A DNA stretch of 64,000 nt from the NCBI GenBank assembly GCA_001800135.1, contig MGUU01000016.1, positions 1 through 64,000 of the forward strand, in the 5' to 3' direction. Origin of the DNA: Elusimicrobia bacterium RIFCSPLOWO2_02_FULL_39_32 (lineage in GTDB: Bacteria > Elusimicrobiota > Elusimicrobia > 2-02-FULL-39-32). The position numbers and the translations under genes are program-made. This document shows positions 10,464 to 63,108 of the stretch, piece after piece. Below the pieces are notes generated by a model. The model worked only from the letters and a program-made list of their open reading frames with translations, ran no database searches and had not been told where the DNA came from. Position 1 is the first letter of the stretch, and each line of letters opens with the position of its first letter.

Positions 10464-10871
10464 TTAGTTAATTTTAAGGTAATTCCTAATATAGTTTCTT
10501 ACTTTTTCAGCTATTTTTAATCCCAATTCAGCGTCATGCCTTGAAAGATCCTCTACGCCATCAATTGGATATCTACCCGCTATTGCATAAAATGAAATCT
10601 TTGACTGTTCCTCTGGCGTGAGAGGAATTTGATCTCCCTTAGGAACAAGCTCAATTAATTCTCCGATATCATGTGATTTAGGAAAATTAATTCTATGGTG
10701 CAACAAGAGCGCTTTTATATATTTTTCAACGCATTGTTGCGCATGAAAACAGACTGTATCATAGGAACAATTTTCGGAAACTGTGAATAATTTCTTTGCC
10801 GATGTAAAATCACTTTCTGCTTTCTGAACCCACTGCTGAATGATCGTTCCTTGATTAGGCCGCTCGTTCAT
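10464..10871 (-). CDS. HEPN-domain toxin-like protein (HepT family)
   Basis: A 135-aa all-helical HEPN protein. The RNase motif RX6H is visible as R60-INFPKS-H67, within the family stretch FHAQQCVEKYIKALLLHH. HEPN/MNT pairs act as toxin-antitoxins in which the nucleotidyltransferase AMPylates the HEPN protein. The start codon lies 17 bp inside the upstream MNT gene, so translation is coupled. The longer HEPN subfamily seen here can also serve substrate-binding roles, so toxicity is not certain. Confidence 0.82.
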   Translation of the reverse strand: MNERPNQGTIIQQWVQKAESDFTSAKKLFTVSENCSYDTVCFHAQQCVEKYIKALLLHHRINFPKSHDIGELIELVPKGDQIPLTPEEQSKISFYAIAGRYPIDGVEDLSRHDAELGLKIAEKVRNYIRNYLKIN

Positions 10872-11169
10872 ACAAGACCTTTCCTTCTTTTAAAGCTGAG
10901 TAAATAACAGTGCCCATGAGCTCCTTATAAATCTCTAAATCTTCCGGCGTTGCAACAAAGATATCCTTTGAAATGCCCATGCCGTTTACAGATGTTCTAA
11001 TTTTAATCGTCAAATCTTTTTTTGAACCATCTATAGGCAAAACCACCAGAAGATCTACATCGCTATCCTTTGTAGCTGTTCCTCGGGCATAGGAACCAAA
11101 AAGAATAATTTTTTGCGGGTGAAATTGCTCGACGATCCTATGGATCATTGATTCGATTTTCGAATTCAT
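10855..11169 (-). CDS. MNT-type minimal nucleotidyltransferase (antitoxin)
   Basis: A 104-aa nucleotidyltransferase with the diagnostic GSX10DXD motif: G25-S26 followed by D37-V-D39, in the context LFGSYARGTATKDSDVDLLV. The C-terminus supplies a third acidic strand (about residue 70). It is the presumed antitoxin that modifies its HEPN partner, whose gene overlaps its 3' end. Isolated two-gene unit at the edge of the nitrate operon. Confidence 0.85.
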   Translation of the reverse strand: MNSKIESMIHRIVEQFHPQKIILFGSYARGTATKDSDVDLLVVLPIDGSKKDLTIKIRTSVNGMGISKDIFVATPEDLEIYKELMGTVIYSALKEGKVLYERAA

Positions 11170-11244
11170 GGGTATAGATTACCATAGGATTTTTGGGATT
11201 TCAATACATATGTATGCTGTATTAAATCTTAGACTTTGAGTGAC

Positions 11245-12276
11245 TTAGCCGCCGACTTGGGACATGCGCAGAGATTGGCTTTGAAAATGAGTGGGACGGA
11301 TAAAATGTTCTTCAGGTTTAAACAAAAGAGCCTGTTGAATGAGGCTGGATATTTCTTGATCAGAAGCGCCTGCCTTTAGAGGAGTTCTTAAATCTATTAA
11401 ATCTGATCCGTGCAAGCAGCTCTTTAATTCCCCCCTTGCAGTCAAGCGAATGCGATTGCAAGATTCACAAAAGTGATTAGAAACTGGACTAATAAATCCA
11501 ATTTTACCTTTTCCATTTACAAGAGAAAAAACTTTTGCAACCCCTAAATATTCTTCTTCTTTATTAAGAACAACAACCTTTTTCACGCAATCTTTTATCT
11601 CAGCTATTGGAACAAAAGAATCCAAACTAACTCCTGCAGTGCCTTCAAAATTATTGGCTGTAGGCATCAGCTCTAAAAAACGAACCTCCAGAGGAGATTC
11701 TTGAGCTAACCTCACAAAATCTGGAATTTCATCCAAATTCCATTCCCTCATTACTACCACGTTAATCTTTACTGGATTTAAACCAAGCTCTAAAGAACGA
11801 TAAATTCCATTTAATACAGATTCTAATCCTTTAACTCCTGTAATTTTTAAAAAACGATCTTGCCTTAAAGTATCTAGACTGATATTAATTCTCTTTAAAC
11901 CCGCAGCAACACATTTTTCTAATTGAGAAAAAAGTAAAAGAGCATTAGTAGTTAAAGAAATATCTTCCACTCCTAATAAAACCGCTTCTCTAATAATTTC
12001 AGGCAAATCCGTTCGTAAAAGAGGTTCGCCCCCAGTGAACCGTATTTTAGTAACGCCTAGACTTTTAAATATTCTTAGCAGCCTTTTTAATTCATTTAAA
12101 GAGAGAATTTCTTCTTTTTTAAAAAATTCAATTCCATTTAAAGGCATGCAGTAACGGCAGCGCAGATTACACCGATCCGTTAAAGAAACGCGCAAATAAG
12201 AAACGCGCCTTTTAAAACCATCTAGGGTTGTTGGGGCAGGAGGTGAAAAACTCAGTGAGTTCATATTTTTATACAT
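11245..12276 (-). CDS. moaA: GTP 3',8-cyclase MoaA (first copy)
   Basis: Radical SAM enzyme for the first step of molybdenum cofactor synthesis, GTP to 3',8-cyclo-GTP. The SAM cluster ligands are C36, C40 and C43 (CNLRCRYC). The second, substrate-binding cluster is in FCESCNRIRLTARGELKSCL near the C-terminus, and the protein ends in the essential Gly-Gly (QVGG). Last gene of the nitrate-assimilation operon, behind mobA, so it supplies cofactor for the nitrate reductase encoded just upstream. A second moaA lies at 46136-47119. Confidence 0.95.
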   Translation of the reverse strand: MYKNMNSLSFSPPAPTTLDGFKRRVSYLRVSLTDRCNLRCRYCMPLNGIEFFKKEEILSLNELKRLLRIFKSLGVTKIRFTGGEPLLRTDLPEIIREAVLLGVEDISLTTNALLLFSQLEKCVAAGLKRINISLDTLRQDRFLKITGVKGLESVLNGIYRSLELGLNPVKINVVVMREWNLDEIPDFVRLAQESPLEVRFLELMPTANNFEGTAGVSLDSFVPIAEIKDCVKKVVVLNKEEEYLGVAKVFSLVNGKGKIGFISPVSNHFCESCNRIRLTARGELKSCLHGSDLIDLRTPLKAGASDQEISSLIQQALLFKPEEHFIRPTHFQSQSLRMSQVGG

Positions 12277-25036: not shown

Positions 25037-26077
25037 TTAGTGTGGTGAGGGGGTAGGTTCATAGTGGCAATATGGCTCTTCAGCCATTTCATTGCCATGC
25101 GTATAAAAGGCTCTGGCTCTGCAACCGCCACATGCTTCCTTAAAAAGACATTGTCCGCATTTGCCGGTCAACTGATCAAAATCGCGAAGCCTTTGAAAAA
25201 GAACAGAATCATTCCAAATTTTAGAAAGCGGCGCATCCTTTATATTCCCAGCTGTTATGGGCAAATATCCGCAAGGAAAAACCTCGCCTGTATGGGAGAT
25301 AAAACAAATATTGATTCCCGCTAAACACCCCATCCTTCTATTATTTTTGCGTGGATCTTCATTTAAAACCTGAGCTTTTACCCTATAAAATTGAGGCGCG
25401 CAAATAGCTCTAACTTCAAGCTTTGATGCTTTTTCTTTTTTACAAACCCACTTCAAATGTTCCTCTACTTCTTCTTTATTGAGCATGTCGCTCTCCGCTA
25501 TTTTTACGCCGCAACCCACTGGCACTAAAAGAAAAAGATATAGAGCGTTCGCGTTAAGCGCAAGAGCTAAATCATAAATTTTTTCTAACTCCCACACGTT
25601 TTTTTTAGTCACTGTAAAATTAATCTGCAATTTTATGCCGGCATCTCTTAAATGAGTGATGCCATTTAGCGCCCGCTCAAAATTCCCCTTTCCTCGAAAA
25701 TAGTCATGCGTTTCAGCCACGGCCCCGTCTAAAGAAACAGAACTATAATAAACCCCGGAACCCTTAATTTTTTCAGCTATTGTTTTGGTAACTAATGTTC
25801 CATTTGTGGACAAAGCAACCGGCAAACCCTTTTTTGAGGCATAGGAGGCGATCTCAAAAATATCTCTTCTAAAAAGAGGTTCGCCGCCAGAAAGGATCAA
25901 AACCGGCTTTCCATTTGCCGCGCAATCATCAATCAAAGCAAAAGATTGGGATGTGGATATTTCATTGGAAGAAACATGGTCTAGGATATCTATGCGCCTG
26001 CAATGCAGGCATCTTAAATTACACCCTGCAGTGGTTTCCCAATAAACGCGCCTTAATGACAACTCTGAGTTAAACAT
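25037..26077 (-). CDS. AhbD/NirJ-like radical SAM-SPASM heme synthase
   Basis: A 346-aa radical SAM enzyme with SAM-cluster ligands C19, C23 and C26 (CNLRCLHC) and a SPASM-type C-terminus (CGQCLFKEACGGCRARAF, then a last Cys near EEPYC). This C-terminal pattern is that of AhbD, which decarboxylates Fe-coproporphyrin III to heme b in the siroheme-dependent route, and of the related heme d1 enzyme NirJ. The cytochrome-rich window fits heme supply. Neighbours are a TusA-like gene, an Rrf2 regulator and a sigma-54 gene. No other heme genes are visible, so AhbD and NirJ cannot be separated here. Confidence 0.78.
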   Translation of the reverse strand: MFNSELSLRRVYWETTAGCNLRCLHCRRIDILDHVSSNEISTSQSFALIDDCAANGKPVLILSGGEPLFRRDIFEIASYASKKGLPVALSTNGTLVTKTIAEKIKGSGVYYSSVSLDGAVAETHDYFRGKGNFERALNGITHLRDAGIKLQINFTVTKKNVWELEKIYDLALALNANALYLFLLVPVGCGVKIAESDMLNKEEVEEHLKWVCKKEKASKLEVRAICAPQFYRVKAQVLNEDPRKNNRRMGCLAGINICFISHTGEVFPCGYLPITAGNIKDAPLSKIWNDSVLFQRLRDFDQLTGKCGQCLFKEACGGCRARAFYTHGNEMAEEPYCHYEPTPSPH

Positions 26078-46135: not shown

Positions 46136-47119
46136 CTACCCGCCTAAAGAGCACATAAAAATTTCGCGCGCATTTGCATTTTTCGATTCCATGCAATGGC
46201 GTTCTGGTTTAATTAAAACCGCCTGGCGAATCAAATCACAAAGATCTTGATCGCTGCCCCCAGACCTAATTAAATTTTTAAGATCCACTCCCTTTTCAGA
46301 AGCTAGACAAGGAACTAAAACCCCTTTTGCAGTTAAGCGCAACCGGTTGCATCGCCTGCAAAAATTAGAAGACAATGCGCTAATAAAACCTATGGTTCCC
46401 AAAGCCCCAGGGGACTTAAAGTAAGTTGCAGGCCCAAACCCACGTGGAGACTCATCTTGAGATAAAGAAACAAGCTCTCCGCAAGCTTTCATAATATCTG
46501 AAAGACCCATCCAATGTTCTCTGCTAAAATAACCGGTTTCACCAATAGGCATCAGTTCCACAAAACGAACATGAATTGGAAATTTATGGGTAAGAGTTAC
46601 AAAATCTTTAATCTCATTAGAATTAATCCCCTTAATAACAACCATGTTAATTTTAAGAGGATCAAAACCAACCGCCAGACCAGCGCGAATGCCTTCCAAA
46701 ACTTTTTCTAAACTTCCAAACCGAGCAATGGTTTGAAAATGTTCCGGCCGCAGTGTATCTAAACTAACATTTACTCTTTTTAAACCAGCTTGGAATAAAT
46801 CTTTTGCCATTTGAGATAAAAGAAGGCCATTAGTGGATAAAGAAATATCTCCAATCCCAGCTAGGCTAGAAATTCTTTTTATCAATGAACAAATCCCTGG
46901 GCGGACCAAAGGTTCTCCCCCAGTAATCCGAATCTTATTAATTCCTAAACTAATGGCTAGGGCTACAATGCGCTCAATTTCATCATCTGAAAGAATTTCT
47001 TCGGGTTTGGAAAATGAGAAACCTTGAATTGGCAAACAGTAAAGACATCGCAAGTTGCAATGATCTGTTACTGATAGGCGCAAATAATCTATTCTTCTGC
47101 CAAATGAATCGCTAATCAT
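46136..47119 (-). CDS. moaA: GTP 3',8-cyclase MoaA (second copy)
   Basis: A 327-aa second MoaA with SAM-cluster ligands C21, C25 and C28 (CNLRCLYC), second cluster in FCRRCNRLRLTAKG ... CLAS and terminal Gly-Gly (CSLGG). It differs strongly from the copy at 11245, so the two are not recent duplicates. It heads the aa3 oxidase operon behind a sigma-54 promoter. Possibly it supplies Moco for NXR under respiratory conditions while the first copy serves nitrate assimilation (inference). Confidence 0.93.
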   Translation of the reverse strand: MISDSFGRRIDYLRLSVTDHCNLRCLYCLPIQGFSFSKPEEILSDDEIERIVALAISLGINKIRITGGEPLVRPGICSLIKRISSLAGIGDISLSTNGLLLSQMAKDLFQAGLKRVNVSLDTLRPEHFQTIARFGSLEKVLEGIRAGLAVGFDPLKINMVVIKGINSNEIKDFVTLTHKFPIHVRFVELMPIGETGYFSREHWMGLSDIMKACGELVSLSQDESPRGFGPATYFKSPGALGTIGFISALSSNFCRRCNRLRLTAKGVLVPCLASEKGVDLKNLIRSGGSDQDLCDLIRQAVLIKPERHCMESKNANAREIFMCSLGG

Positions 47120-47306: not shown

Positions 47307-48632
47307 TCAATAACTCTTTTTTAAACCCTTATCCCAATGGTCCCAAAGGTAAGATTTTTCTTTTCCATCTGCGATCACTCTAAATGCGTAATGTACCTGC
47401 TCCTTATAAAATTCGCAAAAAGCGCCTTTTTTACGCATGCTCCCACTCATTTCATAAACCTCTGCTGGACAGGGTGAACCGCAAAAATTACGAATAACGC
47501 AACTTTGGCATGATTCAACATCCTCTACTTTTCGCTTGGTCACTAGATTGAAAGGCTGACTTATCAGAATATTAGAAAGCTTATCCTTAAAAATGTTCCC
47601 ACCTTTAAACATAGGAAGACCAATGAATTCACTGCAAGGGAAACTATCCCCATTTGGCGCTAATGCAAAAAAACATCTGCCCCCGCCGCAAGGCGAAATA
47701 TCGCACATCAATCGTCTGGCTGTAGGAGCAATGATTGCAAGAAGGATATTAGCGAAATTAGCTACAATCAGCTTTCTCCCTGTTTCTTTATAAAGTTCAT
47801 AAGTACGATCTAAAGCAGCCAAAAAATATTTTGACGCGATATGATCTCCAGGCTTTAATTTCCAAGAATAAGACATGGTGCAGCGCAAAACATTTAAAAG
47901 ACAATTCGGGACCTCGTGACTATGAAAAAACTCAACTAGCTCTACAAGATAACGCATATTTTTACTTGTAATAGTTGAAATCACACTCCAGTTCGGATAG
48001 CCTCTTAAACGTTCCATGGCATCTACAATTTTCTTATAAACTCCCTGGCCACTCCAATTTTTACGAGTAAGATCAGCAATTCCTTCCATCGGAGCATCCA
48101 GAGAAATCCCAATACTCATATGATGATTGGTTAGGAATTCCACTGCTCTCTTATCCAATAACGTGGCATTAGTTTGAATTCCAAAACGAAAATCATTCTT
48201 ATATTTTTCAATCGCTGCAAAGACCGCTTTTTGATTAAGCATTGGTTCTGCGCCATGAAAAACAATTTCCCCTAACATTCCTTTAGGCAAGGTTTGCTTA
48301 AAGTATTTCTTCAAAATTTCTAATGCTTCCAGGATGCGTTCCTCACTCATAGAATCACCATTTTTTCGCATCTTTTCAGGAAGGTAACAATAGGAACAGT
48401 TTAAATTACATTTTTCAGTAGGATTAAAATAAACAGCAGAAAGTTTTTGGGTAAACCGTAATGCGTCCATTTCCTTTTTAAACTTCCAAGATTTCTTGGC
48501 AAAGGATTGAAAAATTCCTCTTTGAGATAAAGTTTTCTCAATCTGATCCTGTTGAACCAAAGCCCAAAAAGCAGTATCAGGCTCTATGAAACAGTTATAT
48601 TTGGAATGTCCTATATCTAAATACTGAAACAT
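47307..48632 (-). CDS. Radical SAM/SPASM peptide-modifying enzyme (CbpB-like)
   Basis: A 441-aa radical SAM protein. SAM-cluster ligands are C75, C79 and C82 (CNLNCSYC); the C-terminal SPASM region has CDISPCGGGRCFF, FPCSEF, CQSCVIRNFCGSPCP and CEFY. It starts 22 bp after a 38-aa peptide gene. Maturases with this layout modify ribosomal peptides (RiPPs). I recall a TIGRFAM pair named CbpA/CbpB, associated with cobalamin riboswitches, which fits; I could not check this. No transporter or protease gene adjoins. Confidence 0.8.
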   Translation of the reverse strand: MFQYLDIGHSKYNCFIEPDTAFWALVQQDQIEKTLSQRGIFQSFAKKSWKFKKEMDALRFTQKLSAVYFNPTEKCNLNCSYCYLPEKMRKNGDSMSEERILEALEILKKYFKQTLPKGMLGEIVFHGAEPMLNQKAVFAAIEKYKNDFRFGIQTNATLLDKRAVEFLTNHHMSIGISLDAPMEGIADLTRKNWSGQGVYKKIVDAMERLRGYPNWSVISTITSKNMRYLVELVEFFHSHEVPNCLLNVLRCTMSYSWKLKPGDHIASKYFLAALDRTYELYKETGRKLIVANFANILLAIIAPTARRLMCDISPCGGGRCFFALAPNGDSFPCSEFIGLPMFKGGNIFKDKLSNILISQPFNLVTKRKVEDVESCQSCVIRNFCGSPCPAEVYEMSGSMRKKGAFCEFYKEQVHYAFRVIADGKEKSYLWDHWDKGLKKSY

Positions 48633-48654
48633 TGAACCGTAGCAGAGTTTTAGA

Positions 48655-48771
48655 TCACTTAATTTTATTATTTAATGATAGGTAATGAGTTAGACCTGTA
48701 CCTTGAATATCAGATGTTTTTCTAACTGCAATAATTTTTTTTTGAATTTTTACTTTTTTTGATTTTTTCAT
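48655..48771 (-). CDS. 38-aa peptide, probable radical SAM substrate (CbpA-like)
   Basis: Encodes a Lys-rich leader (MKKSKKVKIQKKIIAVRK) followed by TSDIQGTGLTHYLSLNNKIK, which would be the core. An AAGGAG ribosome site lies 6 bp before the ATG. It follows the cobalamin riboswitch and its terminator, and precedes the radical SAM gene by 22 bp. It has no Cys, so a Cys-based thioether is unlikely; the conserved-looking GTGLTHY (residues 24-30) is the likely modified site. Too short for routine gene calling. Confidence 0.75.
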   Translation of the reverse strand: MKKSKKVKIQKKIIAVRKTSDIQGTGLTHYLSLNNKIK

Positions 48772-48787
48772 TGATTTCTCCTTTTGG

Positions 48788-48806
48788 CCCGGATTTTACA
48801 TCCAGG
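48788..48806 (-). other. Small hairpin just before the peptide ribosome site
   Basis: Minus-strand CCTGGATGTAAAATCCGGG folds with a 7-bp stem (one G-U pair). It lies between the terminator and the ribosome site of the 38-aa gene and may influence translation. Confidence 0.4.
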
Positions 48807-48826
48807 GCTTACCCTTTTTTATAAAT

Positions 48827-48864
48827 AAAAAAAGGTTCTAACAAAGTTTATTTTTGTTAGAACC
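48827..48864 (-). terminator. Intrinsic terminator in the riboswitch expression platform
   Basis: A perfect 12-bp stem (GGTTCTAACAAA and its complement, loop 48846-48852) followed on the minus strand by seven T (48827-48833). It sits between the cobalamin aptamer and the peptide ORF, so the riboswitch probably acts by transcription attenuation. Confidence 0.85.
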
Positions 48865-48914
48865 CTTTTCCATCAGATTCCATTGCACACTAATTTCTAC
48901 AGTAAAAAAACTAA

Positions 48915-49095
48915 AACAAATCTTTCAGCAGGTCTTCTGACTTTCCTTCTTTTTTAAACCTTCCCACCCAGTTTTAAACTGGACAGTGGCATTCCTTAAA
49001 AAAGTTTTCTTTTCATTCTTAAAGAAGAAAAGAACATGGATTACAGCGGCGGGACCGCCACGGACTCTAACCGTGTTCCTTATTGCTGAAAACTT
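48915..49095 (-). ncRNA. Cobalamin riboswitch controlling cbpA/cbpB-like genes
   Basis: Minus-strand aptamer with the hallmark cobalamin-riboswitch blocks in order: AAGGAACACGG, AGAGTCCGTGGCGGTCCCGC, CGCTGTAAT, GGAATGCCACTGTCC, GGTGGGAAGG and AGTCAGAAGACCTGC. The GCCACTG and AGACCTGC boxes are decisive. The intrinsic terminator follows directly. The regulated genes are not vitamin B12 synthesis or uptake genes but a 38-aa peptide and a radical SAM enzyme. Confidence 0.93.
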
Positions 49096-49101
49096 ATGAA
49101 C

Positions 49102-49130
49102 ATATTATATTTCTATTGTACAACAGTCAA
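49102..49130 (-). promoter_or_regulatory. Sigma-70 promoter of the riboswitch transcript
   Basis: Minus-strand -35 TTGACT (49125-49130), 17-bp spacer, -10 TAATAT (49102-49107; TATAAT also fits with a 15-bp spacer). It places the 5' end close to the start of the aptamer. Confidence 0.6.
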
Positions 49131-62982: not shown

Positions 62983-63108
62983 TGGCAACGCTATCAGGAT
63001 TTGAACCTGAATTTCCGTTCTTTAGATGAATACGAAATTGTTTTCTCCCCATTTCAATATTTTTTTCGCATTCTTAAAACAGCGTCCTTACCGTTAGACG
63101 ATAGCGTC
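62983..63108 (-). tRNA. tRNA gene with structured 51-nt insertion in the anticodon loop
   Basis: All arms except the anticodon loop are normal: acceptor GACGCTA/TAGCGTT, D-arm GTCT-AACGGTAA-GGAC, anticodon stem CTGTT/AACGG, T-arm TCAGG-TTCAAAT-CCTGA, discriminator G and encoded CCA (62983-62985). The anticodon loop (63020-63077) has 58 nt, where 7 is usual. Inside, GAATGCGAAA pairs with TTTCGTATTC. The body resembles tRNA-Gln or tRNA-Glu. The anticodon cannot be assigned: removing 51 nt gives several solutions. It lies between two genes of a long operon, 10 bp after one and 21 bp before the next. Confidence 0.72.

Follow-up and report, generated by a model that had tools for sequence, protein, structure and literature searches.

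A peptide and radical SAM enzyme behind a cobalamin riboswitch as a candidate accessory module of cobamide metabolism

The window analysed here is a stretch of 64,000 nucleotides (contig MGUU01000016.1, positions 1 to 64,000) from Elusimicrobia bacterium RIFCSPLOWO2_02_FULL_39_32, a bacterium from groundwater. Its minus strand carries, in this order, a cobalamin riboswitch aptamer, a terminator, an RBS, the gene of a 38-aa peptide and, after an intergenic gap of 22 nt, the gene of a 441-aa radical SAM/SPASM enzyme, with the following features:

48910..49112, minus strand: cobalamin riboswitch aptamer RF00174 (cmscan 62.0 bits against a gathering score of 31.5; all model positions, 1-189).
48834..48864, minus strand: expression-platform terminator hairpin, an inverted repeat GGTTCTAACAAA...TTTGTTAGAACC.
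48833-48827, minus strand: U7 tract after the terminator hairpin.
48778..48783, minus strand: RBS AAGGAG, 6 nt 5' of the peptide ATG (read from the sequence).
48655..48771, minus strand: cbpA-like precursor peptide of 38 aa, MKKSKKVKIQKKIIAVRKTSDIQGTGLTHYLSLNNKIK (ORF; TIGR04164 22.9 bits, below the cut-off of 35).
48712..48714, minus strand: peptide Ser20, a site occupied by Cys in 92 of 95 relatives.
48682..48702, minus strand: GTGLTHY core, residues 24-30, where the maturase probably acts (G, L and H invariant in 95/95 peptides).
47307..48632, minus strand: cbpB, radical SAM/SPASM maturase of 441 aa (TIGR04163 678.6 bits, cut-off 375; PF04055; PF13186).

All parts of the locus described in the original prediction are present, whereas its interpretation as a whole is partly supported. 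The cobalamin riboswitch is full length, the intrinsic terminator is recognizable as a hairpin with its U7 tract in a leader RNA folding at -98.8 kcal/mol (z = -5.6), and the peptide is indeed followed by a SPASM-type enzyme. As had also been stated, no dedicated protease or exporter lies at the locus. Control of the pair by the riboswitch is well supported, and the riboswitch-terminator layout implies that the pair would be expressed when B12 is scarce. Promoter-like sites are no more frequent than in shuffled sequences.

Other features of the window concern different systems. Two moaA genes, 44% identical, are located at 46136-47119 and 11245-12276; the former adjoins cbpB, and the latter stands beside MobA-like and nitrate-reductase/formate-dehydrogenase-like molybdoenzyme genes. 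The moaA gene downstream of cbpB was rejected as a part of the unit because it is not recurrent among relatives. The radical SAM/SPASM protein encoded at 25037-26077 most resembles AhbD (390 bits, under the cut-off of 500) and NirJ2; its gene neighbours specify an Rrf2-type regulator and a protein with a hybrid-cluster-protein-associated domain. A tRNA-family match of 41.9 bits over 123 bases (62986-63108), for which ARAGORN makes no call, is possibly a tRNA with an insert.

The window CbpB displays the radical SAM motif CX3CX2C (C75/C79/C82) and seven SPASM cysteines (C315, C333, C375, C378, C384, C388 and C406), all of them invariant across 60 sequences. It thus matches TIGR04163 at full length and with every expected cysteine, but, like the enzyme of its sister species JACPBF01 (locus L017, 95% identical), it does not possess the N-terminal extension of the APSRGRF-NTG type that most relatives carry. 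Between both species, dN is about 0.023 and dS about 0.14, and the resulting dN/dS of about 0.15-0.18 indicates that the window enzyme is under purifying selection. A decayed pair was rejected in view of this ratio and of the retention of all enzyme cysteines. In the AlphaFold2 model (mean pLDDT 90), the nearest solved folds are CteB (5wgg), anSME (4k36), ChlB and TigE, all SPASM maturases. CbpB shares the radical SAM-SPASM fold of CteB, the SCIFF maturase, and of the anaerobic sulfatase maturase (TM about 0.7), with two auxiliary clusters expected, whereas identity is only about 20% and the substrates differ. The N-terminal 60 residues, modelled as three strands and two helices, could constitute a peptide-recognition domain, and the adjacent peptide is the presumed substrate. 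No relative of CbpB was detected in viral contigs by the sequence patterns used.

The pair had been compared with the families named CbpA and CbpB. This holds for the enzyme, which exceeds the curated cut-off; the window peptide scores below that of TIGR04164, as does its sister-species counterpart at 25.5 bits (a typical member, at locus L038, reaches 56.9), and is therefore called CbpA-like rather than filed as CbpA. Like CbpA, it stands before cbpB and has a Lys-rich N-terminus, a conserved Arg and the GTGL[ST]HY core, so that the pattern GxGL[ST]H[YF] is found directly upstream of the enzyme gene; unlike CbpA, it carries Ser instead of Cys at position -4 and LSLNNKIK instead of ILMDKKxK. 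The Lys-rich leader of the original prediction is thus present as a stretch, but the N-terminus is poorly conserved and the conserved block extends instead from I13 through the core. The core motif by itself would accordingly understate the conservation. Among 95 precursor peptides, a set drawn from enzyme-found loci only and including the type-2 peptides described below, the common pattern is R-x2-C-x5-G-L-[STA]-H-[YF], in which R, G, L and H are invariant and the other two core positions are [STA] and [YF]. Codon changes between related peptide genes are mostly synonymous (2003 versus 551 non-synonymous; omega-like 0.08). The Cys is missing in three of the 95 peptides, being replaced by Ser in the window and its sister species and by Gly in one type-2 peptide. 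The window peptide contains no Cys at all, the thioether donor by which ranthipeptide and sactipeptide precursors are recognized. These substitutions argue that the modification would not be strictly Cys-dependent, or that these lineages would make a variant product. In genome G238, the cbpA frame is broken and its core lost (L010:1331-1412) beside a still intact cbpB, and no other clear cbpA was found in that genome.

In the genome collection, 226 relatives were confirmed, from which 80 loci were retained by enzyme sequence alone. In all 78 of these enzyme-gathered loci with sufficient upstream sequence, the peptide motif lies upstream of cbpB, and the pairing is far beyond chance; the peptide is conserved beside the enzyme in other genomes, as the original prediction required. 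A cobalamin riboswitch match occurs in each of the 50 CbpB-positive genomes searched (47 over the gathering score). In 35 of these 50, a riboswitch on the same strand lies about 220-750 nt upstream of cbpB, a count that may include a few coincidences as positions were matched within the genome without contig identity. For the other 15 genomes, at least four pairs (L061, L069, L076 and L083) are situated inside riboswitch-led B12 operons. An independent B12-box scan places the element in 49 of the 80 loci. The CbpB tree mixes phyla, which suggests that the enzyme has spread laterally. Nearly all genomes are incomplete MAGs, and gene calling around the loci is mechanical.

In Omnitrophota, CbpB is present in 33 of 384 genomes, and a second subfamily has been identified there, located as follows:

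L117-L133 and L134-L150, Omnitrophota genomes: loci of the second (type-2) CbpB subfamily.

The enzymes of 17 examined Omnitrophota loci form a separate and fully supported CbpB clade (about 478-524 bits). Their precursor peptide reads YRLKCAKTxNGLSHFVMYGD and stays under the CbpA cut-off in all three examples that were scored, so that it represents an unnamed precursor family. In 16 of the 17 loci, the pair is nested inside a cobamide operon of the type CobC-U-T-S-D-Q-CbiB-[pair]-CbiA-X-CobH-CbiM-Q-O-D, its slot varying by genome (after CbiB, CobQ, CobS or CobU; between CobU and CobT in L145, L149 and L150). A riboswitch precedes the first gene of these operons in eight of nine loci scanned.

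The original prediction had noted no B12 gene. This is correct for the window locus, but neither for the genome, which holds a B12 cluster on another contig, nor for relatives, in which the pair occurs within cobamide clusters. Indeed, the other two cobalamin riboswitches of the window genome (G000) head B12 biosynthesis genes on that contig, organized in the runs CobC-CobU-CobT-CobS-CobD-CobQ-CbiB-CbiA and CbiX, CobH, BluB, CbiD, CbiET (names read from translations and backed by a CobS profile match). Given these riboswitch-headed genes, de novo synthesis of cobalamin by the organism is very likely. On contig 8, the third cobalamin riboswitch of the genome (L012:10610-10791) directly precedes a porin-like outer-membrane protein (10833-12200) and a beta-propeller protein, both encoded before CbiX; the porin-like protein is possibly encoded by a cobamide or cobalt uptake gene.

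Cobamide genes lie within 8 kb of cbpAB in at least 25 of the 80 loci, in many phyla and despite short contigs, cluster names having been checked by NCBIfam for representative loci only. For the window pair, as for over half of the remaining pairs of the genome collection, no adjoining B12 genes are seen. The arrangements are diverse. In the complete Omnitrophota chromosome CP070837 (L076), the order is CobU-T-S-CbiB-CobD-AsnB-like-cbpAB-DUF71-BtuFCD-BtuB, whereas L061 shows BtuB-CobQ-CobA-CbiA-CobH-cbpAB-CbiX-CbiM-CbiQ-CbiO-CbiD and L057 simply cbpAB-CobT. CbiB, CobD and BtuFCD stand beside the pair in L053 (genome G338), and BluB is its immediate neighbour in G194. Among these loci of relatives, no transporter or exporter, immunity gene, leader peptidase or partner dehydrogenase recurs beside the pair.

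Several Omnitrophota operons carry a DUF71 gene directly downstream of cbpB. DUF71-B12 proteins are predicted to act in cobamide salvage, having been placed there by clustering with btuFCD and cbiB (PMC3541065). Like CbpA/CbpB, they are a family of unproven function assigned to a pathway by gene clustering; unlike the peptide CbpA, DUF71 is an ATP-pyrophosphatase-type enzyme. Two further proteins recur in such operons. An AsnB-like ATP-pyrophosphatase without the glutaminase domain is encoded beside cbpA in the salvage operons of six loci (L076:8815-9738, L083:8789-9727, L053:2055-2978 and L092:324-1274 among them). A small PflA-like radical SAM protein, matching no specific family above cut-off, is found beside DUF71 in these salvage operons (L083:12027-12752, L059:5644-6372 and L149:8318-9040).

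Co-occurrence points in the same direction as gene order. CobT is encoded in 75 of 79 CbpB-positive genomes overall; within Omnitrophota, it is present in 33/33 CbpB-positive versus 90/351 CbpB-negative genomes (Fisher 1.8e-18, kinship ignored). In Elusimicrobiota, CobS accompanies CbpB in four of five positive genomes, the fifth being G338, versus 27 of 336 negative ones (kinship again ignored). CbiD is a marker of corrin-ring synthesis. Among 50 CbpB-positive genomes, CobS is found in 45 and CbiD in 35, and BluB exceeds its cut-off in nine; salvagers devoid of CbiD also carry the pair, one being the complete chromosome CP070837. The common denominator of CbpB-positive genomes is therefore the nucleotide-loop genes and not corrin-ring synthesis, and BluB is neither required for nor excluded by the pair. 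Both genomic linkage and co-occurrence with cobamide genes being found in relatives, membership of the pair in the cobamide pathway is well supported. Conversely, 27 CobS-positive Elusimicrobiota and 90 CobT-positive Omnitrophota do without it, so that cbpAB is dispensable for the pathway and accessory. Genomes with the pair show no visible gap among the pathway steps.

Thus, in our moderately confident reading of the sequences, CbpA/CbpB probably serves cobamide (vitamin B12) metabolism as an accessory module, yielding an intracellular modified peptide that would help a late or shared step of assembly or salvage. We infer reaction, product and pathway step from family, conservation and operon context. 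When cobamide falls, the aptamer would be left empty and transcription would read past the terminator, as the layout implies, so that precursor and maturase are made. CbpB would then bind the peptide and alter its GLSH[YF] core by radical SAM chemistry, as its family and the conservation of the core suggest. The modified peptide would remain in the cell, as no recurrent exporter or peptidase was found. There, it may assist a step common to de novo makers and salvagers, either corrinoid handling or assembly of the lower ligand and nucleotide loop, to judge from operon membership and co-occurrence. In the form that we prefer, the modified core would serve a corrinoid intermediate as a small carrier or as an axial ligand. 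More specifically, and only tentatively, the mature core might be a ribosomal peptide cofactor or carrier holding the corrinoid through an axial His, usually with Cys, while it is salvaged or its lower ligand is assembled. We favour a role as corrinoid carrier or ligand in view of the invariant His and the nearly invariant Cys; as Cys has been lost in at least two lineages, including that of the window, a carrier relying on Cys could not be universal.

Other roles can be weighed against the same data. Under B12 scarcity, the modified peptide might substitute for an activity that depends on B12, for instance as a redox cofactor resembling PQQ or mycofactocin. B12 substitutes have a precedent in riboswitch-controlled B12-free isozymes, and in PqqA/PqqE (PQQ) and MftA/MftC (mycofactocin), a short conserved peptide and a SPASM enzyme give a conserved product and not a variable antibiotic. 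Riboswitch control and a short, highly conserved core with an aromatic end, of the cofactor type rather than the variable antibiotic type, agree with such a function. Unlike those systems, CbpA/CbpB has neither a recurrent peptidase nor downstream redox genes, is riboswitch-controlled and shows no Glu-Tyr or Val-Tyr core. The lack of a recurrent dehydrogenase partner or peptidase beside the pair, and its varying slots in operons for synthesis, salvage and uptake across phyla, which suit a pathway component better, make this substitution unlikely. An ordinary secreted antimicrobial or signal of the ranthipeptide or sactipeptide type, captured by a cobalamin riboswitch, would be in keeping with the closest maturases by sequence and fold, as these include the Cys thioether formers CteB and PapB, and with the Cys present in most precursors. 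It is rendered quite improbable by a core that is near-constant across phyla under its low omega-like value, by the Cys-less peptides of the window lineage and of one type-2 locus, by the lack of a recurrent transporter, immunity gene or leader peptidase and by the strong link to cobamide operons.

Two further readings keep the pair within the pathway while giving it a narrower task. From a core residue, either His or Tyr/Phe, CbpB could make a free base or phenol for attachment by CobT. The frequency of CobT in CbpB-positive genomes, the pairs adjoining CobT (L022, L023 and L057) or inserted between CobU and CobT, and the lack of BluB above cut-off in most CbpB-positive genomes speak for such a source of lower ligand. 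We nevertheless judge it very unlikely, as BluB is present in the window genome and lies directly beside cbpAB in G194, the interchange of Tyr and Phe opposes a Tyr-derived phenol, and destroying one peptide per ligand would be costly. The peptide could also act in cobalt handling or corrin-ring synthesis only, as a cobalt chaperone for CbiX/CbiK or CbiM, and CbiX or CbiM does adjoin cbpB in L061, L068, L069 and L090. This is the least credible reading, as CbiD-less salvagers, including the complete L076 chromosome, carry the pair; on the same ground, any role confined to corrin-ring synthesis or cobalt insertion was rejected.

The enzymes of cobamide synthesis and salvage are considered well mapped, and modified ribosomal peptides are mainly seen as antibiotics or redox cofactors. 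The open-access literature searched contains no paper on TIGR04163, TIGR04164 or the association of a CbpA/CbpB pair with cobalamin riboswitches; the motif of 95 peptides, the placement of the pair in cobamide clusters, its association with CobT and its presence in CbiD-less salvagers are new here. The placement in the B12 clusters of relatives suggests that manufacture or salvage of B12 includes an unrecognized modified-peptide component. If the accessory-module reading is true, a conserved modified peptide under riboswitch control, embedded in cobamide operons across many phyla, would add a new kind of part to the pathway. In the tentative cofactor or carrier form, it would be a RiPP acting within vitamin B12 metabolism and having two precursor subfamilies, the second without a name. 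Two named but unstudied families, together with an unnamed second precursor family, would thereby become a testable question.
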